The notes beneath the pieces are model-generated. The model worked only from the letters and a program-made list of their open reading frames with translations, had not been told where the DNA came from and searched no databases. Of a stretch of 33,827 nucleotides of DNA, positions 7,191 to 33,827 are shown piece by piece. This DNA is from Bacillota bacterium. GTDB taxonomy: Bacteria > Bacillota > Clostridia > Christensenellales > Pumilibacteraceae. A program made the translations under genes and the position numbers. The stretch lies in assembly GCA_009781235.1 (NCBI GenBank), contig WQYM01000005.1, forward strand, positions 1-33,827, given 5' to 3'. Numbering within the stretch: the first letter of the stretch is position 1; each line of letters starts with the position of its first letter.

Positions 7191-7380
7191 CGTAGGGGTC
7201 GCAGTCCTCTGCGACCCGCTGCCGTTGTGCGGGCGAAAAAGCCGTGCCGGGGGGAGGTGTCGGGGGGACGGGGGTGTCGATTTCGGAAAGCAAGTTTCCG
7301 AAACCCCTTCGGGGCACTTCGCGCTGTGCGCTCGTGTCACCACGCCTCGGGCCGCCGTTCGGCGGCCCTCCGTCCCCGAG
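7191..7380 (+). repeat. Composite element copy 1: GTAGGGG palindrome plus multi-hairpin core (intergenic)
   Basis: GTAGGGGTCGCAGTCCTCTGCGACCC ... GTCGGGGGGACGGGGGTGTCGATTTCGGAAAGCAAGTTTCCGAA ... CCGTCCCCGAG. Confidence 0.9.
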
Positions 7381-11088: not shown

Positions 11089-11342
11089 GGTTTAATTTCT
11101 CCTGTTTCTCGGGATCGCCCGCTTTGCGGGTACGTCCCTATCCTCCCCGCGCTTATTTGGTATTGCCGCAAAAAAATTTACGGCGAAAACCTGCCTGCCC
11201 TTTACACGTCCGGCATGAAAAATTTACCTGACGCAACAGAAAAGACAGATCCGCAACGGGTGCGAATTTTGAACAACCGAATTATAGCACAGAATTTTTG
11301 AATATGCAACCGAATTGCAACGGTATTTTTTTTGTTTTAAAT

Positions 11343-11400
11343 ATTGTCAGGGGGACGGTGGTGTTGACAATATTGTCACTACCACCGTCCCCCTGACAAT
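11343..11400. repeat. REP-like palindrome flanking the RAYT gene (29-bp arms, 2 mismatches)
   Basis: ATTGTCAGGGGGACGGTGGTGTTGACAAT/ATTGTCACTACCACCGTCCCCCTGACAAT. Confidence 0.95.
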
Positions 11401-12152
11401 TATTCTCTAAGCATGTTTCTTAGCTTTTCCCTGCTGACCCCAAGTAACACGGCGATGTCCCTAATGCTTGCGCCGCTTCTGTCTTTCAACTCCTCGACAA
11501 GCTTTCTTACCTGATTGACGTTCATGTTTCTTCCCGGAGTAATCTTGTAATCCTTGTTAAGCTCTAAAAAAACTTTCTCACAGTCTTCGTACTCTTTATC
11601 ATCGTGCTCAAGCCAACTTGTATCGGTTCTCTCCCCCATAATCGCCGTTATATTTTCAGGAGCAATATCATAAAAGATTGCTGCTTCGTCAAAATCGACA
11701 ATTCCCGTCCTTCTTAAATAGTTCGAGTAACTCGAAAACGGATAGTCCTCCGCTTTCTTAACCATTCCGGCTTTCAACGGATTATTCTGTATGTATGCCA
11801 TGCAATAAACCAACTGTCGTTCGCTTCGAATCATCTCACTCTTAAACCTATCTCTAAAAACGTACCCAACTCTGTTATTGATTCTATTGTAGTATCTCGC
11901 ATAATCCGCGTTCACGCGCTTAAAATACAAGGCCAATTCCTGCGCGTCAACAACGCTCAGTAAAATATGCGCGTGGTTTCCCATGACGCAAAACGCAAGT
12001 ATCTTTGCGGGATAATGAATCTTATTCTCTCGCAAGCAAGTCAAATAAAACCCCTTGCAGTGGTCATCGGGAAAAACAAATTCTTTCCCAATCCCCTGCA
12101 CCATCACGTGATAGTATTTTCCGTCTAAATCTTTTCTCGCTATCCTTGGCAT
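11400..12152 (-). CDS. REP-associated tyrosine transposase (Y1_Tnp/IS200-like)
   Basis: MPRIARKDLDGKYYHVMVQG, HUH-type motif FCVMGNHAHILL, YCMAYIQNNPLKAGMV; C-terminal helix-turn-helix-like segment. Confidence 0.92.
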   Translation of the reverse strand: MPRIARKDLDGKYYHVMVQGIGKEFVFPDDHCKGFYLTCLRENKIHYPAKILAFCVMGNHAHILLSVVDAQELALYFKRVNADYARYYNRINNRVGYVFRDRFKSEMIRSERQLVYCMAYIQNNPLKAGMVKKAEDYPFSSYSNYLRRTGIVDFDEAAIFYDIAPENITAIMGERTDTSWLEHDDKEYEDCEKVFLELNKDYKITPGRNMNVNQVRKLVEELKDRSGASIRDIAVLLGVSREKLRNMLRE

Positions 12153-12200: not shown

Positions 12201-12260
12201 TATTGTCAGGGGGACGGTGGTAGTGACAATATTGTCACTACCACCGTCCCCCTGACAATA
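12201..12260. repeat. REP-like perfect palindrome (60 nt)
   Basis: TATTGTCAGGGGGACGGTGGTAGTGACAAT/ATTGTCACTACCACCGTCCCCCTGACAATA, exact inverted repeat. Confidence 0.97.
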
Positions 12261-12264
12261 ATTT

Positions 12265-17822: not shown

Positions 17823-20800
17823 TTACATTTCAATAAACTCGCCGCCGGAAACGGCGAAAACGCTTTTGCGGGCGACGCGCTTTTTAAGAATCCGTCCGGC
17901 TGCCAAAGCGTAAAGCCCGATTTGCCTACGATAGGAAGCCATGAATTCTTCGGCGAGTTTGCCCGTTTTATAGTCGACAATCTCCACCATACCGTCCGCG
18001 TCCTCTATAAGCAGGTCGATAACGCCTTGCAGCAGTACGCCGTTTTCCATGCAATAGATAAACGGCAGCTCGCGGTAAAATTTCCGCCTACTCACGCGCT
18101 CCGCTATTTTTTCAAGCGCGGTATTGGCGGTGTTTTTTTGCAAAAGCCGCGCAAAATCGGGGTAGTTTTTTGAGAAGCCGTCGAAATTTTCGGGGAACGG
18201 CTTAGAAAAATCGGCGGTTTCTAAGAATTTGTGATAGGCGTCCCCGACATCGGTTCCGTACGCAGGTTCGGGGGGCGGGACTCGGGGCTCGGGGTTCGGG
18301 ATTCGGGGGTCGGGGCTCGGGACTCGGGGCTCGGGATTCGGGATTCGGGGGTCGGGATTCGGGGTTCGGGATATTAACTCGTCTTCTTTTAACTGACCAC
18401 TGAAAACTTCCCACTGACCACTGTCCAGGGGCTCGGGGGTCGGGATGGTTACGTTCATTCCCGTAGGGGTCGATTTACAAATCGACCCGCGGGCTGCACA
18501 CCGTGCAACCCCTACGGCTTGCCGGCTCGCGTCCCCTCCGTCGTTTTCTCGCGTCGCTTCGCTCCCCGCGCCTGTAAAAAACATGCCGCCGGCATATTTT
18601 TGCGGCTTCGCCGCACTCCGCCAGCGCATTTTTCGTTTTTCGTTTTTCGTTTCATTTGTAATTTGTTCCGGGACGCCCGATGGGTCGTTCCCTACGGAAA
18701 ATCCCCCTTCGCGCGCCAGTTGCGTTACCGTCGTCTTTACGGGCAATTGCGGGTGCGGGTACACAAAATCCGTGAACTTTCGGACGCAGGCAACAAAGTT
18801 TTCGCTCCCCTGCTTTTCCGGGGGGAGGTGTCGGGGGGACGGGGGCGTTGATTCAAAAATGCAAGATTTTTGAACCCCTGCGGGGCACTTCGCTACGCTC
18901 GTGTCACCACGCCTCGGGTCGCCGGACGGCGACCCTCCGTCCCCGGGCAGAGCCGCAACCAAGGATTCCTGATTCCCCGTAGGGCGGGGACTTGCTCCCG
19001 CCGTTGGGCTTGCTCCCGCCCCTACGGATTGCCGGCTCGCGTCCCCTCCATCGTTTTTCGTTTTTCGTTTTTCGTTTTTCGTTATATTTACCATCGCCGG
19101 GTACAGCCAGTCAAGCCAGCAGCGCGCGTCTATTCCCTCTTTGGGCTCGTAATCCTTCTTGATGCGGCTAAACAGCGCGAGATGGAATTTAGCACGCGTA
19201 CAAGCGACGTACAAAATCCGCATTTCCTCCTCGCACAGTTTTTTGCGCACCTCCAAGACCGCCCGGCGGTACAGGCTGGTTTTGACGGTTTGCCCGCCAA
19301 AAAGATCAAACCACTTAAGCACCGCGCCGAACTTTACATCCAAAATGCAGTCCCTTTTTACATCGTCGAGGTTGAAATTTTTTGAGAGGTTCGGGAGTAT
19401 TACGAACGGGAACTCGAGCCCCTTGGCGGCGTGCACCGTCATAATCCGCACCGCGTCCGCCTCTCCGCCGCCCGAAAGCTTAACCGCGCCCGCCTCCGCC
19501 GCCAAAAGTGCGGCGGCAAAGTCGCGCCCCGCCGAAAGAGCGGAGAGCCTGTCCAAAAACTTAGACAGCCCGTCCGCGGCGTTATGGGCGTCCGGAAGGC
19601 TGAAGGCATATTTAAAATAGTCGTGCTCGGCGCAAACCTTGCCTGCCAAATCCGCAAAGCTGAGTACCCGGGAAAGGTTTTCATAGCGCGCAAGGTTTGC
19701 AAACAGGGCTTGGAGTTTTTGAGAAAGTTCGGGATTCGGGGGTCGGGGGTCGGGGGTCGGGGCTCGGGGGTCGGAGCTCGGGGGTAAGGTATCAGGGCAC
19801 AAGGCACAAGGCACAGGTAATGGATAACGCATATCACCGATACCTGTGACTTGTGCCCTGATACCTATGCCCTCACTCCCATTCTTTCCGTCTTCTTTCA
19901 ACTGACAACTGACAACTGAAAACTGACAACTGTCTCCGGGATTCGGGACGGTTGCGCACATTCCCGTAGGGGTCGAAAGTCCATCCTGCGACCCGCTGCC
20001 GTTGTACGAGGAAAGTGCCGTGCCGGGGGGAGGGGTTGTCACGGGGACATAGTACTTGACAACCCTAACTTTTCCGGGGGGAGGTGTCGGGGGGACGGGG
20101 ACGTCGATTTCGGAAAGCAAGTTTCCGAAACCCCTTCGGGGCACTTCGCGCTGTGCGCTCGTGTCGCCGTAAACCCGTCCCCGGGCAGAGCCGTAACCAC
20201 CACGTCTCGCGTCGCCGTGCGGCGGCCCTCCGTCCCCGGGCAGAGCCGTGCCTGAGCATTCCCGATTCCCCGTAGGGCGGGGACTTGCCCCCGCCGTAAA
20301 GCACGCCACGTCCCCGGGCAAAGCCGTAACCTCACCATCCGCCCCTACGCCCTGACTCCTAACCAAAAATTCCCTCCGACATTCCTCATTCCTAATTTCT
20401 AATTCCTCACTTTCCTGTCCACTGAAAACTTCCCACTGACCACTGACCCCCGTAGGGGTCGATTTACAAATCGACCCGCCGTCCCCGGGCAGAGCCGTAA
20501 TCAAGGATTCCCAATCCCCCGTAGAGGTCGGGTCGCCGGACGGCGACCCTCCGTCCCCCTGCTGTGCCGTAACCGTACAATATTTTTCACACGCCTCAAA
20601 AAACGGCCAATCGCCGCCATCCGGTTGGGCATCCGCCCACAGGCGAATTTGAGCCAATTCCCCGTCGGAAAAATAGCCGCCCAACGGAGACTTTAACACG
20701 GAGACAAGCGCGATATCGTCGCGGCGGTTGTCGATCAGCCGCAGGTAATTGATCAGCCCCCGGATCGCCGGGTTTTCCGCGCCGTCCGCGCTTTTTTGCA

Positions 20801-23207
20801 TCGTTACGGGAACGCCCGCGCGCCGCAGCTTTTCGCTCAAAACCCCGGCAAACTTCCCCATCGAGCGCAGCAGCACCGCGATGTCGCCGAATTCCGCCGC
20901 CCGTTCCGCGCCGTCCTCGGCGATAAACCGCTTTTTAAGCGACAAAATGTGCGCCGTCACCGCATCGGCCTCGGCAGCTTCGGCGGAGGTGTCCGCATCG
21001 GCATCGGGGAATACGTGGTTTTTTACGCTGTACGGGGCTCGGGGGTCGGGCGTCGGGGTTCGGGGTTCGGGACGAGGGAAATTAGGAATTAGGAATGAGG
21101 AGTGAGGAACGGTGGAGGGATTGGGTGTGTTCATTCCCGTAGGGGGCGATGTCCTCGCTGGCCCGCCGGTTGCCAAGTCCCCCGCCAGCGCTGCAAGGCC
21201 TCTCTGCTCCCCGCCTACCGTTGTGCGGGCGCTCATTGCCGTGCCGGGGGGAGGTGTCAGGGGGACGGGGGTGTTGATGCCGAAAGGCAAGCTTTCGCCC
21301 CCCCTACGGGGCACTTCGCGCTGCGCGCTCGTGTCACCACGCCTCGGGTCGCCGTTCGACGACCCTCCGTCCCCGGGCAGAGCCGCAGCCACGGAGTCCC
21401 TCCGACATTCCTCACTCCTCACTCCTAACTCCTCATTCTTCCGACATTCCTCACTCCTCACTCCTAACTCCTCATTCTTCCGACATTCCTCACTCCTCAC
21501 TCCTAACTCCTCATTTCCCACAAGCCGGCACACCACCGGCTCGACGCCCAGCGCGCCCAAGCCCGTCTCGTTAAAGCAAGCCGTGCCCGCATAATCGACG
21601 CCGCCAAACTCGCGGGTCATCGCATCACTAAACACGCGGTCGCAAAAGCGCAATATCCCGCTGTCGCTGCGAAAATTTGCGTTTAAGCGGATTACGAACT
21701 TTTCGTCCTCATAACCCGCAAATATCCCCGGGTCGGAAAGCCGAAAGCCGTAAATGGACTGCTTGACGTCGCCCACGTAAAACCTTTTTGCCGCAATGCG
21801 GGAAAAAATTGCGTCCTGCAAGGGGTTGACGTCCTGAAACTCGTCCACCATCAGCCACCGGAACCTTGCGCCGATTTCCGCAGCTGCATCGGGGTTGCAC
21901 AAAATGCGGTACGCCGCGCGCTCAATGTCGTTAAAATCGCACCGGCTTTTGCGGCGCTTTTTTGCAGCAAAAATTTTTGCGGCGCTTTTAGCAAGCTCGA
22001 CCAAAAGCGCTGTATGCCCCGCCGCAAGCGCAGGGTCGGCGTACGACAGCGCCTCGTCGCGCTCCGCGCAAAAATCCTTGTACGCGCCCCGCAACTTTTT
22101 ATAGCGCTCGTAAAGCGCGGCCTGCGCATCGGACGCGGGTTTAATGACCGGGAGCCTTTTAAGCTCGCCCGCATCGGCAGCAACCTCGTCGTAAAAAACC
22201 GCGACAGAAGCGGCGCAAGACACAAAGCCTGCGTGCTCGCAAGTCGTTTTTAACTCTGCCGCACGCCGTAAAAACCCCCCAAGCAGGCTTTTATAATTCT
22301 CGGAAAGCGCCGCGATATGCCCGGCATGGCCTTGCGTCGCCGCAGCCGATTTTTCAAACCACGCGTCGGGGTCGGGGTGAATGGCGGAGAATTCGTATAT
22401 CCTTTTTACGATAGCCGCCATCCGTTTGTCGTTTCGGCGCGGCGAAAGGATTTCAAAAAGCTCCAAAAAATCGCCTTGGGTCCGGGGTTCGGAGCTCGGG
22501 GCCCGGGGTTCGGGATTCGGGGTTCGGGATATTAACTCGTCTTCTTTTAACTGTCCACTGTCCACCGTCCACTGTCCACTGTCTTGCGCCGCTTCGGCAA
22601 TCGCCTCGTCTACGGAAAGGTTTAGCAGTGCGTCCGACTCGGCCTCGTCCAACACCTCGAACGCGGGGTCGATGTCGTCGGCATAATAAAAATATTCGCG
22701 CGCGATAGAGGCGCAAAACGCGTCTATCGTGGAAATCTGCGCCGTCGGAAGCTGCCCGATGGCACGGGAAGCCCAAGTGGGGGGGCGGGGGTTGGGGATC
22801 GGGGATCGGGGCTCTGTGGTTGGGTATAAGGTATCAGGGCACAAGGCACAAGGCACAGGTAATTGATTTTGCATATCACCGATACCTGTGCCTTGTGCCT
22901 TGATACCTATGCCTTTTTCGGAAGTCGGGATTCGGGACATAAATCCATCTTCTTTCAATTGTCCACCGCCCACTGTCCACTGTCCACTAAGCTGCTGAAG
23001 CAGCTTAGTGCGCATATCGGCAGCCGCGGCTTTGGTGAACGTGCAGACTACCATGGAAGAAAGCTCCTCCCCTGCCGTCAAAAGCCTGAGGATGCGCTGA
23101 ATCATCACGGTCGTTTTACCGCTGCCGGCAGAGGCGGAAACTAAAATTTCGTCGCAGTCGCTTAAGATGGCCGCACGCTGTGCGGGAGTGAATCGGTCTA
23201 AATCCAT
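17823..23207 (-). CDS. addA: ATP-dependent helicase/nuclease subunit A, expanded to 1794 aa by in-frame repeat inserts
   Basis: ILVSASAGSGKTTVMIQRIL, VDEFQDVNPLQDAIF, FYVGDVKQSIYGFR, LNANFRSD, IMTVHAAKGLEFPFVI, YVACTRAKFHLALF, VEIVDYKTGK. Confidence 0.95.
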   Translation of the reverse strand: MDLDRFTPAQRAAILSDCDEILVSASAGSGKTTVMIQRILRLLTAGEELSSMVVCTFTKAAAADMRTKLLQQLSGQWTVGGGQLKEDGFMSRIPTSEKGIGIKAQGTGIGDMQNQLPVPCALCPDTLYPTTEPRSPIPNPRPPTWASRAIGQLPTAQISTIDAFCASIAREYFYYADDIDPAFEVLDEAESDALLNLSVDEAIAEAAQDSGQWTVDSGQLKEDELISRTPNPEPRAPSSEPRTQGDFLELFEILSPRRNDKRMAAIVKRIYEFSAIHPDPDAWFEKSAAATQGHAGHIAALSENYKSLLGGFLRRAAELKTTCEHAGFVSCAASVAVFYDEVAADAGELKRLPVIKPASDAQAALYERYKKLRGAYKDFCAERDEALSYADPALAAGHTALLVELAKSAAKIFAAKKRRKSRCDFNDIERAAYRILCNPDAAAEIGARFRWLMVDEFQDVNPLQDAIFSRIAAKRFYVGDVKQSIYGFRLSDPGIFAGYEDEKFVIRLNANFRSDSGILRFCDRVFSDAMTREFGGVDYAGTACFNETGLGALGVEPVVCRLVGNEELGVRSEECRKNEELGVRSEECRKNEELGVRSEECRRDSVAAALPGDGGSSNGDPRRGDTSAQREVPRRGGESLPFGINTPVPLTPPPGTAMSARTTVGGEQRGLAALAGDLATGGPARTSPPTGMNTPNPSTVPHSSFLIPNFPRPEPRTPTPDPRAPYSVKNHVFPDADADTSAEAAEADAVTAHILSLKKRFIAEDGAERAAEFGDIAVLLRSMGKFAGVLSEKLRRAGVPVTMQKSADGAENPAIRGLINYLRLIDNRRDDIALVSVLKSPLGGYFSDGELAQIRLWADAQPDGGDWPFFEACEKYCTVTAQQGDGGSPSGDPTSTGDWESLITALPGDGGSICKSTPTGVSGQWEVFSGQESEELEIRNEECRREFLVRSQGVGADGEVTALPGDVACFTAGASPRPTGNRECSGTALPGDGGPPHGDARRGGYGSARGRVYGDTSAQREVPRRGFGNLLSEIDVPVPPTPPPGKVRVVKYYVPVTTPPPGTALSSYNGSGSQDGLSTPTGMCATVPNPGDSCQFSVVSCQLKEDGKNGSEGIGIRAQVTGIGDMRYPLPVPCALCPDTLPPSSDPRAPTPDPRPPNPELSQKLQALFANLARYENLSRVLSFADLAGKVCAEHDYFKYAFSLPDAHNAADGLSKFLDRLSALSAGRDFAAALLAAEAGAVKLSGGGEADAVRIMTVHAAKGLEFPFVILPNLSKNFNLDDVKRDCILDVKFGAVLKWFDLFGGQTVKTSLYRRAVLEVRKKLCEEEMRILYVACTRAKFHLALFSRIKKDYEPKEGIDARCWLDWLYPAMVNITKNEKRKTKNDGGDASRQSVGAGASPTAGASPRPTGNQESLVAALPGDGGSPSGDPRRGDTSVAKCPAGVQKSCIFESTPPSPRHLPPEKQGSENFVACVRKFTDFVYPHPQLPVKTTVTQLAREGGFSVGNDPSGVPEQITNETKNEKRKMRWRSAAKPQKYAGGMFFTGAGSEATRENDGGDASRQAVGVARCAARGSICKSTPTGMNVTIPTPEPLDSGQWEVFSGQLKEDELISRTPNPDPRIPNPEPRVPSPDPRIPNPEPRVPPPEPAYGTDVGDAYHKFLETADFSKPFPENFDGFSKNYPDFARLLQKNTANTALEKIAERVSRRKFYRELPFIYCMENGVLLQGVIDLLIEDADGMVEIVDYKTGKLAEEFMASYRRQIGLYALAAGRILKKRVARKSVFAVSGGEFIEM
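18265..18700. repeat. In-frame composite insert A5b in addA
   Basis: GGGATTCGGGG-type arrays, TCTTCTTTTAACTGACCACTG module, GTAGGGGTCGATTTACAAATCGACCC palindrome (18462-18488); between host segments TVTQLAREGGF and YGTDVGDAYHKFLE. Confidence 0.85.
18820..19085. repeat. In-frame composite insert A5a in addA, contains one multi-hairpin core
   Basis: GTCGGGGGGACGGGGGCGTTGATTCAAAAATGCAAGATTTTTGAA ... CCGTCCCCGGGCAGAGCCG, then TTTTTCG array. Confidence 0.88.
19728..20572. repeat. In-frame composite insert A4 in addA, the largest (~280 codons)
   Basis: Arrays, GGTATCAGGGCACAAGG inverted-repeat module, core copy, GTAGGGGTCGATTTACAAATCGACCC (20451-20477). Confidence 0.88.
21030..21518. repeat. In-frame composite insert A3 in addA with core and 3x39-bp array (21402-21518)
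   Basis: Encodes NEELGVRSEECRK x3 and ALPGDGGSSNGDPRRGDTSAQREVPRRG. Confidence 0.92.
22478..22585. repeat. In-frame insert A2 in addA
   Basis: CGGGGTTCGGGATTCGGGGTTCGGGATATTAACTCGTCTTCTTTTAACTGTCCACTGTCCACC. Confidence 0.85.
22775..22984. repeat. In-frame insert A1 in addA
   Basis: GGGGATCGGGGATCGGGG array, GGTATCAGGGCACAAGGCACAAGGCACAGGTA ... TACCTGTGCCTTGTGCCTTGATACC, then TGTCCAC array. Confidence 0.85.
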
Positions 23208-23209
23208 GA

Positions 23210-26200
23210 TTAGTCCTCTTTAGAAAAAATCTCTTCCCGCCCTACCTTTGCATACTTGCGAACCCTGCCTTCCCCGTCCGCGCCAAAGCCGCACATCGCG
23301 CCAAAGCTACAGTAATCGCACACACCCTCGGCGGGGCTTGGCGCAATGTAACCCCCGCACATCTCCTCTAAAGCCTGCTGCGCCACCCGCACGGCGTATT
23401 CCGTCAGCCCGCCAAGCTCCCCCGTGCCCATGCCATACTCCGACTTTGCCATCGGAATAACGCCGTCCGCACCGGGCTTAACATTGCGCTTCGCCTCGAT
23501 GACCGGGCTCTTATACCCGGGCTCGATCAAGCGGCGGTCTGCGGCCGCCAAAAGCTCCCCGGAGTCATTATACACCCCGCATAGGCTGCGCGGCGGCTCA
23601 CCCGCCTCGATTAGCGGCTTTGAGAGCGGAAAGTAAAACATGCCGGCCCCTTGATAGCCGTTTTCCTCCAGCACCTTGGCGTACAGCGGAAGCTGGAGCG
23701 CGCGCCCGTAGTAGAGCTCTGTAGCCGAAAACTTGGGGAGCTTGCCGGTTTTATAATCGATAACGCGCGCAAACCCCCCAAAGGTATCGACGCGGTCAAT
23801 CTTGCCGCGCAGATAAACCGGGGAGGGGCGGGATTCGGGTCGGGGAGAATTAGGAATTAGGAGTGAGGAGTGAGGAACGGTGGAGAGATTGGGTGTGTTC
23901 ATTCCCGTAGGGGTCGATGTCCTCGCTGGCCCGCCGGTTGCCAAGTCCCCCGTAGGGGGCGCAAGTCCTCTCTGCAGCCCGCTGCCGTTGTGCGGTGGCT
24001 CTTGCCGTGCCGGGGGGAGGTGTCGGGGGGACGGGGACGTTGATTCAAAAAGGCAAGCTTTTTGAACCTCCTGCGGAGGCACTCCGCTGCGCTCCGTGTC
24101 ACCGTACCCGTCCCCGGGCAGAGCCGCAGCCACGGAATCCCTCCGACGTTCCTCACTCCTCACTCCTAACTCCTCATTCTTCCGACATTCCTCACTCCTA
24201 ATTCCTAACTCCTCACTCTTCCGACATTCCTCACTCCTCACTCCTAACTCCTCACTTTCCTGACCCCTAGCCCCTAAAAACGCCACCGTTTTTAGGTCGT
24301 TGCCGCGCGCGTGGCCGAACCGCAGCTCTAGACCCAACGGTTTAAACGCGCCCGCCGTGTACGATTCCGCGATGCGCCCGGCAAGGCGCGCGGCCTCGTC
24401 TACCGCGCGCGCCAAGAGGCGCTTGTTTTTTTCCAGCAGCGCGCCGAATTCTTCTTTAGCAATCGAGCCGGCAATCGCCCTCATGCGGTTTTCGGCGTCC
24501 TTAAAGCCGTCTAAAAAGCAGGCTTCGACAAAACGTTCCGCCGCCCGGTGCAAAAAGCTGCCGATGTCGGTAGGCCTGATTTCGCCCGTGTCGCGCTCTT
24601 TTAGCCGCAGCCCCCCGGCGGCAAAGCACCGGTATGGGCAGGCCAAATATTCCTCGAGCCGCGTGGCCGAAACGGTATTATCGCGAAAATAGAGCAAGGG
24701 AGTCCGGGGCTCGGGGCTCGGGGGTCGGGATTCGGGACGAGGAAAATTAGGAATTAGTAGTGAGGAGTGAGGAATAGCGGAGGGATTGGGCATGTTGTTT
24801 CCCGTAGGGGTCGGAGCCCGGCAGTTCGACCCGCTGCCGTTGTGCGGTAACTCTTGCCTTGCCGGGGGGAGGTGTCGGGGGGACGGGGGTGTTGGTTCAA
24901 AAAGGCAAGCTTTTTGAACCTCCTGCGGAGGCACTTCGCGCTGTGCGCTCGTGTCACCACGCCTCGGGCCGCCGCTTAGCGGCTCTCCGTCCCCGGGCAG
25001 AGCCGTAACCGCAGGACTTCGATTCTCCGCCAACGGCGATGCCCTCATCGCCCCGCCGTCCCCCTGCTGTGACGTAACCAATTTACAAAGCTCCGCCGTC
25101 ATCGGCAAGCCCCTGCCGCCTGCCCGCATGTCCGACAGCGCGCCGAGCAAAAGCTCCGCCGCGTTTGAAAGGGTGGAGATTTCGGCCGCCATTTCATTCA
25201 TTTTGGCCGCGTCGTTATGTTCCACCGCGTTGCGGAACGAAAGCCCGTCCGCTAAGCTCCGCCGCGTTTTTTCGACGGAATTGTGTACGACGCTTTTTGC
25301 GCCGCGCGTAACTGCGGACGCCAAATCCGAAATCCGGCTGTCCCCCGCAAGCGAGTACGCCAAAAAAAGCCGGTCGGCGGACGCTAAAACGCGCACCGCC
25401 TCGCACCGGGCGGCGCGAGCCAGCGCATCCGAATCCGGCCCGGCAGCCTTTCCCGCCGCCGAAAGAACGGCGTTATCCGCGTCGGAAAAAAGCCCCCCGG
25501 CTTCCCGGGCTTCAGGCAGAACGCCCTCGCAAAAATCGACGGCGAACACCTCTTTAAACCTCCCCGCGCGGAACGTTTCCGCGCCGCCCACCACTACCGC
25601 GTCCGCCGTTTCGTTGACGAGCGAAATGCCGGTCGCGCCCACACCCTCGGAGAAGAGGGAGAAGAGGGAATGAGGAGTGAGAAGTGAGGGGTGAGGAACG
25701 GCGGATGGGGAATAGGGGATGGGGGATGGGAATACAAATCCGTCTTCTTTTAACTGATCATTGACCACTGACCCCTGACCACTGACCCCCGCCAGCGCTG
25801 CAAGGCCTCTCTGCAGCCCGCTGCCGTTGTGTGAGAAAACTGCCGTGCCGGGGGGGAGGTGTCGGGGGGACAGGGACGTTGATTCAAAAAGGCAAGCTTT
25901 TTGAACCTCCTGCGGAGACACTTCGCTGCGCTCCGTGTCACCGTACCCGTCCCCGGGCAGAGCCGTAACCTCACCATCCGCCGCTACACCCTGATTCCTA
26001 ACCCAAAAATCCCTCCGACATTCCTCACTCCTCACTCCTAACTCTTCATTCTTCCGACATTCCTCACTCCTAATTCCTAACTCTTCATTCTTCCGACATT
26101 CCTCACTCCTCACTCCTAACTCCTCACTCACCTCCCCCCTAACCCCTGAAAGCTGACCCCTGTCCACTGACTCCTGGCCCCTGAAAACCGAAGTTAAAAA

Positions 26201-27598
26201 CTCCGCGGCCTCCAAGAGCCCGTCGTAAATTTGCCCCAAATCCGCGCCCGCGATTTCCGAGAGTTCCGCCGTTTTCTCTTTTGCACCGCATAAGGTAAAT
26301 ACGCCGCGCAAAAAATCACGGAACGCCTCGCCCGTTTTGGCGGACGCGAAAAGCTTGGCGAATTCGGCCAAGAACCCAACGAGCGAGGCGCGCACATTCT
26401 CGGCGGTTTTGGATTCGGGACTCTGGATTCGGGACTCTGACAAATGTGACAAATGGGGACGGATCCATTTGTCATTTTGACAAATGGATCCGTCCCCATT
26501 TGTCACTGGCCACTGACCACTGTCCCCCGCAAACTCCTCCAAAAACCCCTTGTAATTAACGCCCCGGCTCAATACGTACTCCTCAAAAATATCTGCGGCA
26601 CGCTTGTCGATGCCGGAATAATAGTTTTTTGACAATGCAATCATGTCTTGGCGGCGAAAGCGCCCGGCCGCCGAAACGCAAAGCTCTAAAAACCGGAACA
26701 GCTCGGTATCGCGCAAGTTAAGCTTGCGGTCGATGAAAAACGGGATATCAAATTCGGTTAAAATCCGCTCGATCGGCGCGTAATCGGCGGGGGGCGCCAG
26801 GATGCAAAAATCCCGGAACCGTGCGCCCTCTATCACGCCGCGCCGGATGCGCTTTGCCGTCGCTTTGACGCGGTCAGAAATCTCGGCCGCCTCAAAAAAC
26901 TCCATCTCGCCGAATGCATACGTCAGGCTTTCGACGTCGAAAAAGGTATAGGAGGCGGCTTTATCTTCAAAAATCGCCAAAACGTCGCGCTCTAACGCGG
27001 TAAACCGGTCGAAACCCGCGACATAAAAATGCGTGCACGAGAGGTCGTCGTAGGCAATATCGCGTGCAAGCAGCCGCATCCGCCCGGCCAAATCGACGAA
27101 TTTGTTTTCCGTTTCGGCCAAAAACCGCGTGTAGACGCGTGCGATGTCGGCCAGCTTTAAGCCTGCCGCGCCGCCTTTGCCGACAAAATCGGACGGCGCC
27201 AAGCCCGCGTTTGCCGCGACCGAGATTGTTTCGTACATTTTAGCGGCAAAGCCCGGAAGGCGCGCGCTGCTTTTAAAAACGCGGAAATCCTTTTTTACCT
27301 CGTCTACGATGCCGCGCACCAGCATCACCGCGCCGCCCGCCGATAAAAACCCGGGGTCGCGGCGCACAAATTTTTGAAAAAGCCGGTTAAACGTCAGCAC
27401 CTCGACGTCAAACGCGCCGGTTCCCCTTGTAAACAAAAATCGCTCCATGTAAATGGAGCATTTATCCGGGACGACAACGTAATGTTTCACGGCCAAATCG
27501 ACCGTGCGCGCGCATAAGCAATCGCGCACGGCCAAAAATGACGCGTAAAAGTCAGTAAAGGTTTCGACCCGGATTCCCACACCGTAAGTATACGGCAT
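23210..27598 (-). CDS. addB: ATP-dependent nuclease subunit B, expanded to 1462 aa by in-frame repeat inserts
   Basis: C-terminal nuclease RVIDYKTGKLPKFSATELYYGRALQLPLYAKVLEE; cysteines CPYRC and CDYCSFGAMC; adjacent to addA. Confidence 0.92.
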   Translation of the reverse strand: MPYTYGVGIRVETFTDFYASFLAVRDCLCARTVDLAVKHYVVVPDKCSIYMERFLFTRGTGAFDVEVLTFNRLFQKFVRRDPGFLSAGGAVMLVRGIVDEVKKDFRVFKSSARLPGFAAKMYETISVAANAGLAPSDFVGKGGAAGLKLADIARVYTRFLAETENKFVDLAGRMRLLARDIAYDDLSCTHFYVAGFDRFTALERDVLAIFEDKAASYTFFDVESLTYAFGEMEFFEAAEISDRVKATAKRIRRGVIEGARFRDFCILAPPADYAPIERILTEFDIPFFIDRKLNLRDTELFRFLELCVSAAGRFRRQDMIALSKNYYSGIDKRAADIFEEYVLSRGVNYKGFLEEFAGDSGQWPVTNGDGSICQNDKWIRPHLSHLSESRIQSPESKTAENVRASLVGFLAEFAKLFASAKTGEAFRDFLRGVFTLCGAKEKTAELSEIAGADLGQIYDGLLEAAEFLTSVFRGQESVDRGQLSGVRGEVSEELGVRSEECRKNEELGIRSEECRKNEELGVRSEECRRDFWVRNQGVAADGEVTALPGDGYGDTERSEVSPQEVQKACLFESTSLSPRHLPPGTAVFSHNGSGLQRGLAALAGVSGQGSVVNDQLKEDGFVFPSPIPYSPSAVPHPSLLTPHSLFSLFSEGVGATGISLVNETADAVVVGGAETFRAGRFKEVFAVDFCEGVLPEAREAGGLFSDADNAVLSAAGKAAGPDSDALARAARCEAVRVLASADRLFLAYSLAGDSRISDLASAVTRGAKSVVHNSVEKTRRSLADGLSFRNAVEHNDAAKMNEMAAEISTLSNAAELLLGALSDMRAGGRGLPMTAELCKLVTSQQGDGGAMRASPLAENRSPAVTALPGDGEPLSGGPRRGDTSAQREVPPQEVQKACLFEPTPPSPRHLPPARQELPHNGSGSNCRAPTPTGNNMPNPSAIPHSSLLIPNFPRPESRPPSPEPRTPLLYFRDNTVSATRLEEYLACPYRCFAAGGLRLKERDTGEIRPTDIGSFLHRAAERFVEACFLDGFKDAENRMRAIAGSIAKEEFGALLEKNKRLLARAVDEAARLAGRIAESYTAGAFKPLGLELRFGHARGNDLKTVAFLGARGQESEELGVRSEECRKSEELGIRSEECRKNEELGVRSEERRRDSVAAALPGDGYGDTERSGVPPQEVQKACLFESTSPSPRHLPPARQEPPHNGSGLQRGLAPPTGDLATGGPARTSTPTGMNTPNLSTVPHSSLLIPNSPRPESRPSPVYLRGKIDRVDTFGGFARVIDYKTGKLPKFSATELYYGRALQLPLYAKVLEENGYQGAGMFYFPLSKPLIEAGEPPRSLCGVYNDSGELLAAADRRLIEPGYKSPVIEAKRNVKPGADGVIPMAKSEYGMGTGELGGLTEYAVRVAQQALEEMCGGYIAPSPAEGVCDYCSFGAMCGFGADGEGRVRKYAKVGREEIFSKED
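23825..24290. repeat. In-frame composite insert B4 in addB with core and 3x39-bp array (24143-24259)
   Basis: Encodes SEELGVRSEECRK-type repeats and ALPGDGYGDTERSGVPPQEVQKACLFESTSPSPRHLPP. Confidence 0.92.
24700..25080. repeat. In-frame composite insert B3 in addB with core
   Basis: Encodes ALPGDGEPLSGGPRRGDTSAQREVPPQEVQKACLFEPTPPSPRHLPP. Confidence 0.9.
25655..26190. repeat. In-frame composite insert B2 in addB with core and 3x39-bp array (26015-26131)
   Basis: Encodes NEELGVRSEECRK-type repeats and ALPGDGYGDTERSEVSPQEVQKACLFESTSLSPRHLPP. Confidence 0.92.
26446..26506. repeat. REP-like perfect hairpin inside addB coding sequence (29-bp stem, 3-nt loop)
   Basis: GTGACAAATGGGGACGGATCCATTTGTCA-TTT-TGACAAATGGATCCGTCCCCATTTGTCAC. 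Confidence 0.96.
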
Positions 27599-29842: not shown

Positions 29843-31387
29843 TTATTCGCTATTCGTTAAATCCTCGTCGCGTGCGGCAACATCCGCATACCCCTGCGGC
29901 CGCACAATAACCTGCGCTTTGCCGTGCCCGCACAGCACCACCGGCGGGACGGGGTTGCGGTTGTAATTGGACGCCATCGAAAAGTTGTACGCACCGGTGG
30001 AGAGGACGGCCAAGATGTCGCCGGAGGCTACGGACGCGGGGAGAGCGACTTTCTCAATCAGCGTATCGGTTTCGCAGCACTTGCCGGCAACGGTGAAGTT
30101 TTCCGTTGCACTCTCAAGCGCCTTATTCGCTACAATTGCGTCGTACTTTGCGTCGTAAAGGGTGTAGCGCGGGTTTTCGAACAGGCCGCCGTCCACCGCG
30201 ACGTAGTTTTTGAGACCCGGGATTTTCTTGACCGCGCCGACGGTGTAGAGCGTGGTTCCCGCCTCCCCTACCAAAGACCGGCCGGGCTCGATGATGAGCT
30301 TGGGGGCGCCGATTGACTTTTGCGCGATGCACGCGTTTAGCTTATCCGCAATCGCGCCGACGAATTCGGATAAGGGGGGCGGCTCGTCGCCGGGCAGGTA
30401 GCGTATCGCGTAGCCGCCGCCCATGTTGAGCTCGCGGACATCCCCGCCGATTTCCTTGCGGATTACGGCGATTAAATCTGTCATCCGGTCAACCGCCGCC
30501 AAAAACGGCTCGATTTCGAATATTTGAGAGCCGATGTGGCAATGGATGCCTAAAAAATCGAGGCAAGGGTGCGAGAGGATTTCTTTGACGGCGGGGATGA
30601 CGTCCTCCGGCAAAAACCCGAATTTAGAATCTGCGCGCGCGGTTTGAATAAAGTGGTGGGTGTGCGCGTCCACCTCGGGGTTGATGCGGATAAGAACGCC
30701 TTGACGGCGGGGAGAATGACGAATGACGAGTGACGAGTGACGAATTTCGGATGGGATTGCAGCGGAGTTTCCCGTAGGGGGCAACCCATTGGGCACCCCG
30801 CCGATACAAGCATCCGTCGTTTTTTGCGGGGCGCCCAATGGGTCGCCCCCTACGAGTTCGTTATTATCTCCATCCGTATTTGTAATTTGTAATTTATAAT
30901 TTGTAATTTCTTCTGAATCCGCTGACCCCTGACCCCTGACCCCTGACCCCTGACCCCTCGCCACCTCGGCCAGTGTCTTGATTTCATCAAAATGGTCGAT
31001 AACAATCGCGTGCACGCCCGCGTTGGCGCCGGCGGCAAGCTCCGCGCGCGATTTATTGTTGCCGTGAAGGTATAACCGCTGCGGGTCAAAGCCCGCGGCC
31101 AAAGCGGTGTACAGTTCACCGCCCGAGGCGACGTCGGCGCCTAAACCTAAAGGAGCGATGATTTGATATATCGCCTTGCAACCGAAAGCCTTGGACGCAA
31201 AGCACACCAAATTGTCCGGGTATTTTTTATCAAGCGTGCTTTTCATCTCCAAAGCGGCGGATTCGATGCGTCCCCGCTCCATCACATACAGCGGCGTCCC
31301 GAATTCCTTTGCCAAATCTTCCGCATCGCACCCGCCAAGCTCAAGATGCCCGTTTTTATTTATCGTAAGCGTACTTCGTAAGTTCAT
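29843..31387 (-). CDS. lysA: Diaminopimelate decarboxylase carrying an in-frame repeat insert
   Basis: FASKAFGCKAIYQI, GADVASGGELYTALAAGF, GVLIRINPEVDAHTHHFIQTARADSKFGF, GIHCHIGSQI, IIEPGRSLVGEAG. Confidence 0.95.
   Translation of the reverse strand: MNLRSTLTINKNGHLELGGCDAEDLAKEFGTPLYVMERGRIESAALEMKSTLDKKYPDNLVCFASKAFGCKAIYQIIAPLGLGADVASGGELYTALAAGFDPQRLYLHGNNKSRAELAAGANAGVHAIVIDHFDEIKTLAEVARGQGSGVRGQGSADSEEITNYKLQITNTDGDNNELVGGDPLGAPQKTTDACIGGVPNGLPPTGNSAAIPSEIRHSSLVIRHSPRRQGVLIRINPEVDAHTHHFIQTARADSKFGFLPEDVIPAVKEILSHPCLDFLGIHCHIGSQIFEIEPFLAAVDRMTDLIAVIRKEIGGDVRELNMGGGYAIRYLPGDEPPPLSEFVGAIADKLNACIAQKSIGAPKLIIEPGRSLVGEAGTTLYTVGAVKKIPGLKNYVAVDGGLFENPRYTLYDAKYDAIVANKALESATENFTVAGKCCETDTLIEKVALPASVASGDILAVLSTGAYNFSMASNYNRNPVPPVVLCGHGKAQVIVRPQGYADVAARDEDLTNSE
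30705..30962. repeat. In-frame composite insert in lysA (two types of array flanking a 29-bp-stem palindrome)
   Basis: GACGAGTGACGAGTGACGAA array; CGTAGGGGGCAACCCATTGGGCACCCCGC (30773-30801) / GCGGGGCGCCCAATGGGTCGCCCCCTACG (30826-30854); ATTTGTA array; CCCCTGA array. Confidence 0.93.
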
Positions 31388-31467: not shown

Positions 31468-33243
31468 TTACCTCAGCGTCGGGTGTTTTCCGGCGGCGAA
31501 GTCGAGGCCGGTTAAATCCCAAACCGCGGCGTCCCAGCCGAGTTTGTCCGTATAGAACGATACGGAATTAAGGTCTTCCAAGGTACATACCAGGGTTGTG
31601 CTTCCGGAATCCGACGGGTTATGGTATTGGCCGGTGGATTCCCGGTAAAATTCCTGTCCTTCGTAACGGTAGGATTGCGCCCTGTGCCCTATCGCGCAAA
31701 GGCCGGCCATCGCCATCAAGCTGCCGATATTGATATCGGTTACCTCGGTGATATTGCCGGTCGCAAAGCAATTGAAAATCTTGCCCTTCGTTCTAGCCGG
31801 ATAATTGTCCGCATTATAACCGGCTAAGCCCCCCGCAGAATTCACGTATTCAATGGTTATATGGACGGACGCATAACAATTCTGCACCGTAGCCTTTTCT
31901 ATATACCCAACTAAACCGCCCGCAAACATAAATAGACTCATCGCCGGATTCGGATGCTTATTATACAAGTTCACGTTGCCGCCGGCCGCGTAACAATTTT
32001 CTACCAAGCCGTCTTCGGCAACAACTCCTACCAAGCCGCCGGCCATACAAGAAATAGCGGAGGAATTGGTTACGTCGATCATAAAGTTCTCCACACCCAA
32101 ATTTCGGATAACTCCGCGGCTTGCGCCGAATAAACCCACGCAATCATAAAAAACCGTAATGTTAAAATTGCTTACCGTATGGCCGCTCCCATTAAAAATG
32201 CCGGAAAAATACACGGTCTCCTTACCGCTTACAAATGCGCCTATCCCGATCGGCATCCACTCCGCACCCTCTAAATCAATATCCGCCGTCAACATGAAAT
32301 ACGTATCGGCAAAATCCATCCCAAGGTTCACCAATACGGATAACGCCCATAAGTCCTCGGCGTCGGCAATCAAAAAGGGGTATGCCTCCGTGCCCCATCC
32401 GCCTTCTTCCACCTCGTATTCGACCGGAAGCGACCAACCGGAATCGGCGTAGTTTTCTCCGTCGCCAGCCGCCAAAACCTTGATGGGATATATCCCGGGC
32501 GCCATCAATGCCGGTATCACTAAGTCGAACTCGGGCGCATCGGCGGTGCCGATTTCCGTGCCGTCGATGCTCACCTTATAGCCGGAAGCGCCCGAAACCG
32601 CGTCCCACGTAAGCGATGCGTCGTTAATCTGCAGGTTCGACGGCACGGCAAGGCTGACGACGGGGCGAATCACTTTATATTCAAAAACCGCAGACCAATC
32701 GGAATCGACGTAGTCTTCCCCGTCGCCGACCGCTTTTACCTTGATTTGATACGCCTTTGCTTCCGTTAAATCCGATAACGGGTAACTTGTAAGCTGCGCG
32801 GCGTATTCCGCGCCGTCGATGCTCACCTTGTAGCCGTTTGCGCCCGAAACCGCATCCCACGTAAGCAACGCGTCGTTAATCTGCAGGTTCGACGGCACGG
32901 CAAGGCTGACGACGGGGCGAATCACTTTATACTCAAAAACATTAGACCAATCGGAATCGACGTAGTTTTTCCCGTCGCCGACCGCTTTCACCTTGATTTG
33001 GTACGCCTTTGCTTCCGCAAAATCCGATAACGGATAACTTGTAAGCTGCGCGGCGTATTCCGCGCCGTCGATGCTCACCTTATAACCGGAAGCGTTGTCT
33101 ACGGGCGTCCATGAAAGAACCGCGCCGTCCGCTTGAAGGTTTTGAGGCGCGGCCAGCGGCCCGGCTTGGCGGCAAGCGGAAAAACATAACGCGGCAATCA
33201 ATGAAACGATCGTAATGCATACGGCTTTTTGCAAATTTTTCAT
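31468..33243 (-). CDS. Lipoprotein with fibronectin-III-like repeats and a GLUG-motif-like region
   Basis: Lipobox LIAALCFSAC; repeats LQINDALLTWDAVSGANGYKVSIDGAEYAAQLTSYPLSDL; GGLVGYIEKATVQNCYASVHITIEYVNSAGGLAGYN. Confidence 0.85.
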   Translation of the reverse strand: MKNLQKAVCITIVSLIAALCFSACRQAGPLAAPQNLQADGAVLSWTPVDNASGYKVSIDGAEYAAQLTSYPLSDFAEAKAYQIKVKAVGDGKNYVDSDWSNVFEYKVIRPVVSLAVPSNLQINDALLTWDAVSGANGYKVSIDGAEYAAQLTSYPLSDLTEAKAYQIKVKAVGDGEDYVDSDWSAVFEYKVIRPVVSLAVPSNLQINDASLTWDAVSGASGYKVSIDGTEIGTADAPEFDLVIPALMAPGIYPIKVLAAGDGENYADSGWSLPVEYEVEEGGWGTEAYPFLIADAEDLWALSVLVNLGMDFADTYFMLTADIDLEGAEWMPIGIGAFVSGKETVYFSGIFNGSGHTVSNFNITVFYDCVGLFGASRGVIRNLGVENFMIDVTNSSAISCMAGGLVGVVAEDGLVENCYAAGGNVNLYNKHPNPAMSLFMFAGGLVGYIEKATVQNCYASVHITIEYVNSAGGLAGYNADNYPARTKGKIFNCFATGNITEVTDINIGSLMAMAGLCAIGHRAQSYRYEGQEFYRESTGQYHNPSDSGSTTLVCTLEDLNSVSFYTDKLGWDAAVWDLTGLDFAAGKHPTLR

Positions 33244-33312: not shown

Positions 33313-33371
33313 TGACAAATGGGGACGGGTCTATTTGCCAAATTGGCAAATAGACCCGTCCCCATTTGTCA
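33313..33371. repeat. REP-like perfect hairpin (29-bp stem, 1-nt loop) overlapping the dacA stop codon
   Basis: TGACAAATGGGGACGGGTCTATTTGCCAA-A-TTGGCAAATAGACCCGTCCCCATTTGTCA. Confidence 0.96.
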
Positions 33372-33827
33372 CCATCCGGCAATCGCATCGCCTACGATGT
33401 CTAAATACGTTTTCTTCTTGACGTCGTTTTCGGCGACGAGGTTTACGCGGCCCGCCTCGACGCCGTCCACTTTTACGACCAGCTCGCCCGCCACCTGATT
33501 CATCGCGACGGGCGCGGTGAGTTTTTGCACCGTCGGCTCGCTCGCCACCTCGCGCTTGCCCTTCTTGCCGAAATAATACAAATCGTCCGCAGGCACTACG
33601 TTCACAAATTCCGCCTTGCCTTTTTCGACGCGCACGGGGTCAACGACCGCCGCGCCCTTTTCGACAAGTCGGCGCGTCTCGTAATTGGCAAAGCCGTAGT
33701 TAAACAGCTTGGCGTTTTGGGCGTTGCGCTCTTTAGAGGTCGCCGCGCCCATCACCACGCTTATGAGCCGGGTTTGCCCGCGCTTAGCGGTGGCGGAGAG
33801 GCAGTACATCGCCTCGGTGGTAAAGCC
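33369..33827 (-). CDS. dacA: D-alanyl-D-alanine carboxypeptidase (PBP5/DacA family), 5' end beyond the window
   Basis: GFTTEAMYCLSATAKRGQTRLISVVMGAATSKERNAQNAKLFNYGFANYET. Confidence 0.88.
   Translation of the reverse strand, partial: GFTTEAMYCLSATAKRGQTRLISVVMGAATSKERNAQNAKLFNYGFANYETRRLVEKGAAVVDPVRVEKGKAEFVNVVPADDLYYFGKKGKREVASEPTVQKLTAPVAMNQVAGELVVKVDGVEAGRVNLVAENDVKKKTYLDIVGDAIAGW

Follow-up and report, generated by a model that had tools for sequence, protein, structure and literature searches.

How does a structured repeat come to lie inside protein-coding genes, and why do related copies of it read on in two different frames? This question is raised by the addA-addB operon, which is encoded on the minus strand of a 33,827-nt stretch of DNA (the window; contig WQYM01000005.1 of assembly GCA_009781235.1, positions 1 to 33,827) from a Bacillota bacterium of the Pumilibacteraceae. 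Six copies of a palindromic repeat, A3, A4, A5a, B2, B3, and B4, had been cited in this operon by an earlier note, which proposed that a 2-nt change in the length of a GCAAG hairpin switches the reading frame and that tolerance of such changes may explain the persistence of the element inside genes. The source is a single draft metagenome-assembled genome of a gut-type Clostridia bacterium (2.5 Mb, 247 contigs, 87% complete), and the copy counts given here come from genome searches plus retrieved stretches. Taken as a whole, the element is probably a transposase-related palindromic repeat that was inserted into genes and is translated there, in phases filtered by stop codons.

The repeat unit, referred to as the core, is a palindrome of about 120 nt in which an outer stem (GGGGACGG/CCGTCCCC) encloses three hairpins. 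Its order on the coding strand is GGCTCTGCCCGGGGACGG, an optional hairpin, GACAC, H3, H2, H1, and CGTCCCCCCGACACCTCCCCCCGG, where H3 has the form GCGC-NNN-GCGC, H2 the form CCCC-GNA-GGGG, and H1, the GCAAG/CTTGC hairpin, 9 bp and a CTTGC loop. The window holds seven copies, all on the minus strand: three in addA (A5a, 18813..18950; A4, 20069..20191; A3, 21239..21380), three in addB (B4, 24005..24124; B3, 24857..25000; B2, 25844..25964), and one outside any long open reading frame (ORF) (7242..7378). When folded as single-stranded DNA, A4 formed a long outer stem around the three hairpins with a z-score of -3.6, and the z-scores of A3 and B3 were -2.1 and -2.3, respectively. H1 occurred as 13 distinct sequences, in which arm pairing was maintained by double changes (25 cells; none of 500 shuffles reached 25). 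The core preserves DNA pairing, not peptide sequence, and the encoded peptides are rich in proline, glycine, and arginine; GFGNLLSEIDVPVPPTPPPG and VQKACLFESTPPSPR are examples of insert peptides. A search of Rfam gave no match of the element to a known RNA family, ribozyme, or intron.

To locate the frame change, the spacing of fixed anchors and the phase of the host codons at every anchor were determined for the 14 copies in long ORFs, with intergenic copies for comparison. Eight copies (A3, A4, those in uvrC, whiA, and metH, and those designated L036, L053, and L033) were read in frame X (GFGNLLSEID...PVPPTPPPG), and six (A5a, B2, B3, B4, L031, and the ligA copy) in frame Y (VQKACLFEST...SPRHLPP). 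The observation that A3 and A4 read on as ...PVPxTPPPG and A5a, B2, B3, and B4 as ...SPRHLPP, both stop-free and with the host ORFs continuing, was thus reproduced. The proposed cause, a GCAAG hairpin of 21 nt in the former copies and 23 nt in the latter, was not. H1 measured 9 + 5 + 9 = 23 nt at a constant offset in each of the 28 genome copies that could be scored, among them A5a (18852..18874), A4 (20108..20130), A3 (21278..21300, with seven of nine pairs formed), B4 (24044..24066), B3 (24896..24918), and B2 (25883..25905), all on the minus strand. From the CTTGC loop, GTCCCCC lies exactly 24 nt away in 14 of 14 intragenic copies, and almost every scorable intergenic copy has this spacing too. 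With a length that never varies, the GCAAG hairpin is ruled out as the place where the frame changes.

The length variation that changes phase in the gene copies lies upstream of H1, between GACAC and the start of H1. The distance from GACAC to GTGCC, which covers H3, was 14, 15, 18, or 19 nt, and that from GTGCC to the H1 loop, which covers H2, was 25, 26, or 28 nt; H2 itself occurred in variants of 10, 11, and 13 nt. In frame X, the two distances (H3 + H2) were 18 + 26 in A3, A4, uvrC, whiA, and L036, 15 + 26 in metH, and 19 + 25 in L053. In frame Y, they were 18 + 28 in B3, 15 + 28 in B2 and B4, 14 + 26 in A5a and L031, and 18 + 25 in ligA. At least three different length changes lead to frame Y: a gain of 2 nt in H2 (addB), a loss of 4 nt in H3, the GCGC hairpin (A5a and L031), and a loss of 1 nt in H2 (ligA). 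The 2-nt difference between the addB copies and A3/A4 is located in H2 (CCCC-GNA-GGGG and CCTCC-GCA-GGAGG): the H2 of A4 (CCCC-GAA-GGGG; 20131..20141, minus strand) has 11 nt, and that of B4 (sense-strand sequence CCTCC-GCA-GGAGG; 24067..24079, minus strand) has 13 nt, the true gain of 2 nt over A3 and A4. The phase shifts therefore arise in H2 and H3, elsewhere than in the hairpin to which they had been attributed, an outcome that the earlier note had itself named as refuting its claim. The GACAC-CTTGC distance was divisible by three in one of 14 gene copies, compared with five of about 14 intergenic copies, which is suggestive but involves too few copies.

The host frame had also been described as restored downstream each time. 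This was correct in that the ORFs are intact, but at the next common anchor (CACAACGG) the phase of A3 still differs from that of the addB copies. The phases of A3 and B4 rejoin a few nucleotides past this anchor through small spacer differences, and A5a passes directly into host sequence. All that restoration of the host frame means is that each insert has a net length divisible by three.

The frame in use was then compared with the stop codons of the variants. Stems of the TTCAAAAA type contain CTTTTTGAA, the TGA of which closes frame X; the H1 of B4 carries such a TGA. All six intragenic copies of this type were read in frame Y, and the other eight gene copies were all read in frame X. Downstream, the TGA of the CCCCCTGAC variant closes frame Y in A3, metH, and L033, all three of which were read in X. 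As the sequences show, frame use follows stop codons in particular variants. Lengths of all three phases are present among the intergenic copies of the TTCAAAAA type; the drift in length thus seems to be no more than the usual variation of hairpins, with the gene copies as its stop-free subset. What remains of the frame-switch idea is drift in hairpin length, filtered by stop codons.

Whether the core tolerates frame changes to an unusual degree was assessed from its openness. The core was open in one to three sense frames per gene copy, which, with the two open readings, speaks for a 2-nt switch in the GCAAG hairpin and for persistence in genes through unusual frame tolerance. However, the mean number of open sense frames out of three was 1.9 in genes, 1.6 outside genes, and approximately 1.5 in dinucleotide shuffles, and the antisense frames were open to a similar extent. 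Openness so near the shuffled expectation rules out a special frame tolerance of the core. The large addA and addB inserts were each open in only one of six readings, and whole inserts were closed in one or both of the other frames. Considering also the invariant 23-nt hairpin, we find this explanation hardly credible, and frame tolerance as the reason for persistence in genes was largely wrong: whole inserts are frame-locked. The observation in the earlier note was thus partly confirmed, and its interpretation is partly supported.

Across nine insert regions of addA and addB (about 3.9 kb), the host frame contained no stop codons, whereas the other two sense frames contained 54 and 54, with about 38 expected per frame. 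Because the host frame is stop-free over all nine regions, the inserts appear to be translated and selected to stay open; it is the conservation of frame that points to translation. Such frame-locking argues against skipping, splicing, or gene decay. Removal or skipping of the inserts by RNA splicing, byp-type translational bypassing, or protein-level excision would make the frame irrelevant and would fit the long inserts in essential genes and the strong hairpins present, but a skipped insert, which in byp-type bypassing need be neither open nor a multiple of three, would not require a host frame free of stops over about 3.9 kb. Since no ribozyme or intron was matched in Rfam either, we regard removal or skipping as very unlikely.

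The gene addA (17823..23207, minus strand; Pfam UvrD-helicase, UvrD_C, and PDDEXK_1) encodes a helicase-nuclease subunit of 1794 aa and hosts A3, A4, A5a, and further repeat inserts, and addB (23210..27598, minus strand; TIGR02773) encodes a protein of 1462 aa and hosts B2, B3, and B4. In same-genus relatives, AddA has 1068 and 1082 aa and AddB has 1009 and 1010 aa. The inserts were not found in the AddA and AddB of these relatives, whose alignments span the insert sites. The inserts combined added about 726 aa to AddA, and single inserts reach about 277 aa. The composite insert with A3 (21022..21536) consists of 39-nt heptamer units, the core, and CCCGANN heptamers, and had no stops in the host frame and 12 and 9 in the others; the corresponding numbers for the insert with A4 (19740..20570) were 0, 6, and 10, and relatives are without both. 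The region with A5a (18241..19097), which takes in a short host stretch, had 0, 12, and 4 stops. In addB, the composite inserts are those with B2 (25679..26167), B3 (24698..25099), and B4 (23826..24277). All of these lie on the minus strand. Within two addA inserts, GGCACAA heptamer arrays (19796-19860 and 22838-22900) together make up a long inverted repeat (GGTATCAAGGCACAAGGCACAGGTAT). Another family of palindromes (TGACAAATGGGGACGGATCCATTTGTCA), also with the GGGGACGG motif, was observed at 26446-26505 and 33313-33372, one copy being within addB.

The assembly is fragmented and these loci are highly repetitive, so addA and addB might be decaying pseudogenes or mis-assembled, with inserts devoid of functional meaning. 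Both ORFs are, however, intact and have Pfam domains on either side of the inserts, a like pattern was found in ileS, carB, ligA, metG, alr, and mutL on other contigs, and no second full-length AddA match was found in the genome. Decay or mis-assembly has, in our estimation, only a slight chance of being the explanation.

The core is present in about 40 copies in this genome and in none of 60 relatives. As a whole element, it was absent from about 395 other sampled genomes of the order, two of which had just fragments of 26–40 nt. The 14 copies in long ORFs are all in sense orientation and in frame; their hosts are addA and addB (three each), uvrC, ligA, whiA, metH, a P-type ATPase gene, a very long ORF, and the genes of two unidentified proteins. 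In uvrC (L039:1549-4095, minus strand), several tandem copies of the 5′ portion of the core (GGTTACGGCTCTGCC...GGTGACACGG) were observed (GDGYGDTGYGSA repeats). The very long ORF (L033:3158-10099, minus strand) exceeds 2300 aa, contains many repeat inserts, gave no NCBIfam match, and resembles a glycoside phosphorylase by eye only.

For sister cassettes made of heptamer arrays, this genome gave 91 matches and 30 relatives gave none; the cassettes lie in frame in mutL, ileS, metG, fmt, carB, radC, folBK, alr, and apgM, among others. At a given strictness, tandem arrays in the window had a period of 7 only (27 windows, compared with 0 for periods of 4–6 and 8–12). Since 7 equals 1 modulo 3, three heptamer units run through all codon phases. 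Strict 7-nt arrays of many sequences (CCCGANN, AGTGGAC, TCACTCC, CGTTTTT, AACTGAC, and ATTTGTA) were seen between 2933 and 30965. A lysA-like (diaminopimelate-decarboxylase-like) ORF at 29843-31387 (minus strand) carries a heptamer/repeat insert of like style at about 30690-30965. Elsewhere in the window, two 252-nt tandem repeats with 92% identity (32554-33094) lie in the ORF of a predicted surface protein and appear fibronectin-like by eye.

The list of hosts bears on whether the inserts are beneficial, as adaptive linkers or as a contingency system modulating DNA-repair proteins. AddA, AddB, UvrC, LigA, MutL, and RadC are DNA repair or recombination proteins, and published intragenic repetitive extragenic palindromes (REPs) show a like tendency (PMC3733652). 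Nevertheless, the hosts also include tRNA synthetases, CarB, MetH, FolBK, Alr, and the P-type ATPase, the peptides abound in proline, glycine, and arginine, and what the core conserves is the pairing of its DNA, not the peptide sequence. A benefit to the host proteins is thus unlikely.

The origin of the core was addressed through a Y1 transposase gene (IS200-like, RAYT/TIRYT-type; 11400..12152, minus strand; Pfam PF01797, E 4e-9), one of seven Y1_Tnp matches in the genome. It is flanked by palindromic inverted repeats at 11339..11400 and 12202..12263, and the arm of the former, TGTCAGGGGGACGGTGGTGTTGA, resembles the core arm. The arm of A3 is identical to the transposase repeat at 22 of 23 positions, and the other copies have two changes; the alignment score was 41, compared with 26 for the best of 2000 shuffles. 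The arm family comprises 86 sites at up to two mismatches, mostly as inverted pairs, compared with one site for a reversed control. The core may thus be a derivative mobilised by a Y1-type transposase.

Based on these results, we propose that a palindromic repeat related to Y1 transposase inverted repeats entered protein-coding genes in one Clostridia lineage, together with heptamer arrays, and would be translated there within the host proteins. The lengths of the hairpins drift while pairing is preserved, and the intragenic copies are the subset with a net length divisible by three and a stop-free host frame, as was shown for addA and addB. Indels in H3 and H2 set the phase of H1, and TGA stops in CTTTTTGAA (frame X) or CCCCCTGAC (frame Y) decide which phase is usable, as the sequences show. 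A Y1 transposase presumably mobilises the element, and its placement in protein loops may be harmless.

Two points weigh against this proposal. Several copies are interrelated: the three in addB are relatives of one another, as are A5a and L031. The 6/8 frame split therefore represents fewer than 14 independent events. In addition, 13 of the 14 gene copies enter at one phase at GACAC, though a second phase is also open there, and stop avoidance alone does not account for this common phase. Together with the opening of the addA and addB inserts in one of six readings, the common entry phase could mean that the cassettes spread from gene to gene as coding-adapted, frame-locked units and that the intragenic copies are a lineage selected to be translatable. 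We hold this only tentatively and think it rather doubtful; if true, the element would be a mobile repeat that has become adapted to living within open reading frames.

Compared with known systems, the proposed transposase-related, stop-filtered insert is closest in kind to intragenic palindromes. Intragenic REPs with GTAG or CGTC tags (Di Nocera 2013) are translated and are often found in genes for DNA repair (recBCD, uvr genes, and DNA ligase among them), and their larger clusters encode 43 to 82 aa (PMC3733652). Like them, the present elements are short structured palindromes that are dispersed, lie in genes in a minority of copies, have repair hosts, and are partially associated with a Y1 transposase (PMC3733652). 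In contrast, the unit here is composite (outer stem, three hairpins, and heptamer arrays), its inserts extend to about 277 aa, and its host belongs to the Clostridia. REPs proper have 20–40 nt and an unpaired GTAG or CGTC tag, whereas the core has about 120 nt and several hairpins; no GTAG was seen in the core, and its CGTC lies within the outer stem and is not unpaired. The high number of dispersed copies (about 40) with covarying structure (H1) is shared with REPs.

The Rickettsia palindromic elements (RPEs; Ogata 2000) are likewise translated intragenic palindromes, and, as far as the accounts cited here describe them (PMC10969869, PMC3733652), they share with the core its palindromic nature, a length of about 100–150 nt, in-frame location in unrelated, often essential genes, and a characteristic peptide. 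The present elements differ in that stop content determines which of two frames their central part is read in, and in that copies sit within larger heptamer-containing cassettes. With 14 in-frame, all-sense copies in unrelated genes and an open host frame, the core can be placed with the RPE class as a matter of kind, with no claim of common descent. TIRtrons/TIRYT elements also combine a Y1 transposase with long, partly self-complementary inverted repeats that are dispersed as inverted pairs, and the GGGGACGG motif is close to their published GGGGWSAS consensus (PMC3733652). Unlike these, and unlike the repeats flanking the transposase here, in which the inner hairpins are absent, the gene-embedded core has three extra hairpins between its arms, and its second arm has diverged.

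The present case is a large, composite instance of intragenic REP/RPE biology in Clostridia. Protein-coding palindromes are best known in Rickettsia and in some Proteobacteria; a lineage of the Clostridia is added here, and the scale is larger. In-frame repeat cassettes that the sampled relatives lack occur in about 20 genes, either identified or with long ORFs, including ileS, carB, ligA, and alr, which are usually essential. The genome provides a natural experiment on two questions: how far essential enzymes put up with unrelated sequence, and by what path repeats get into genes.

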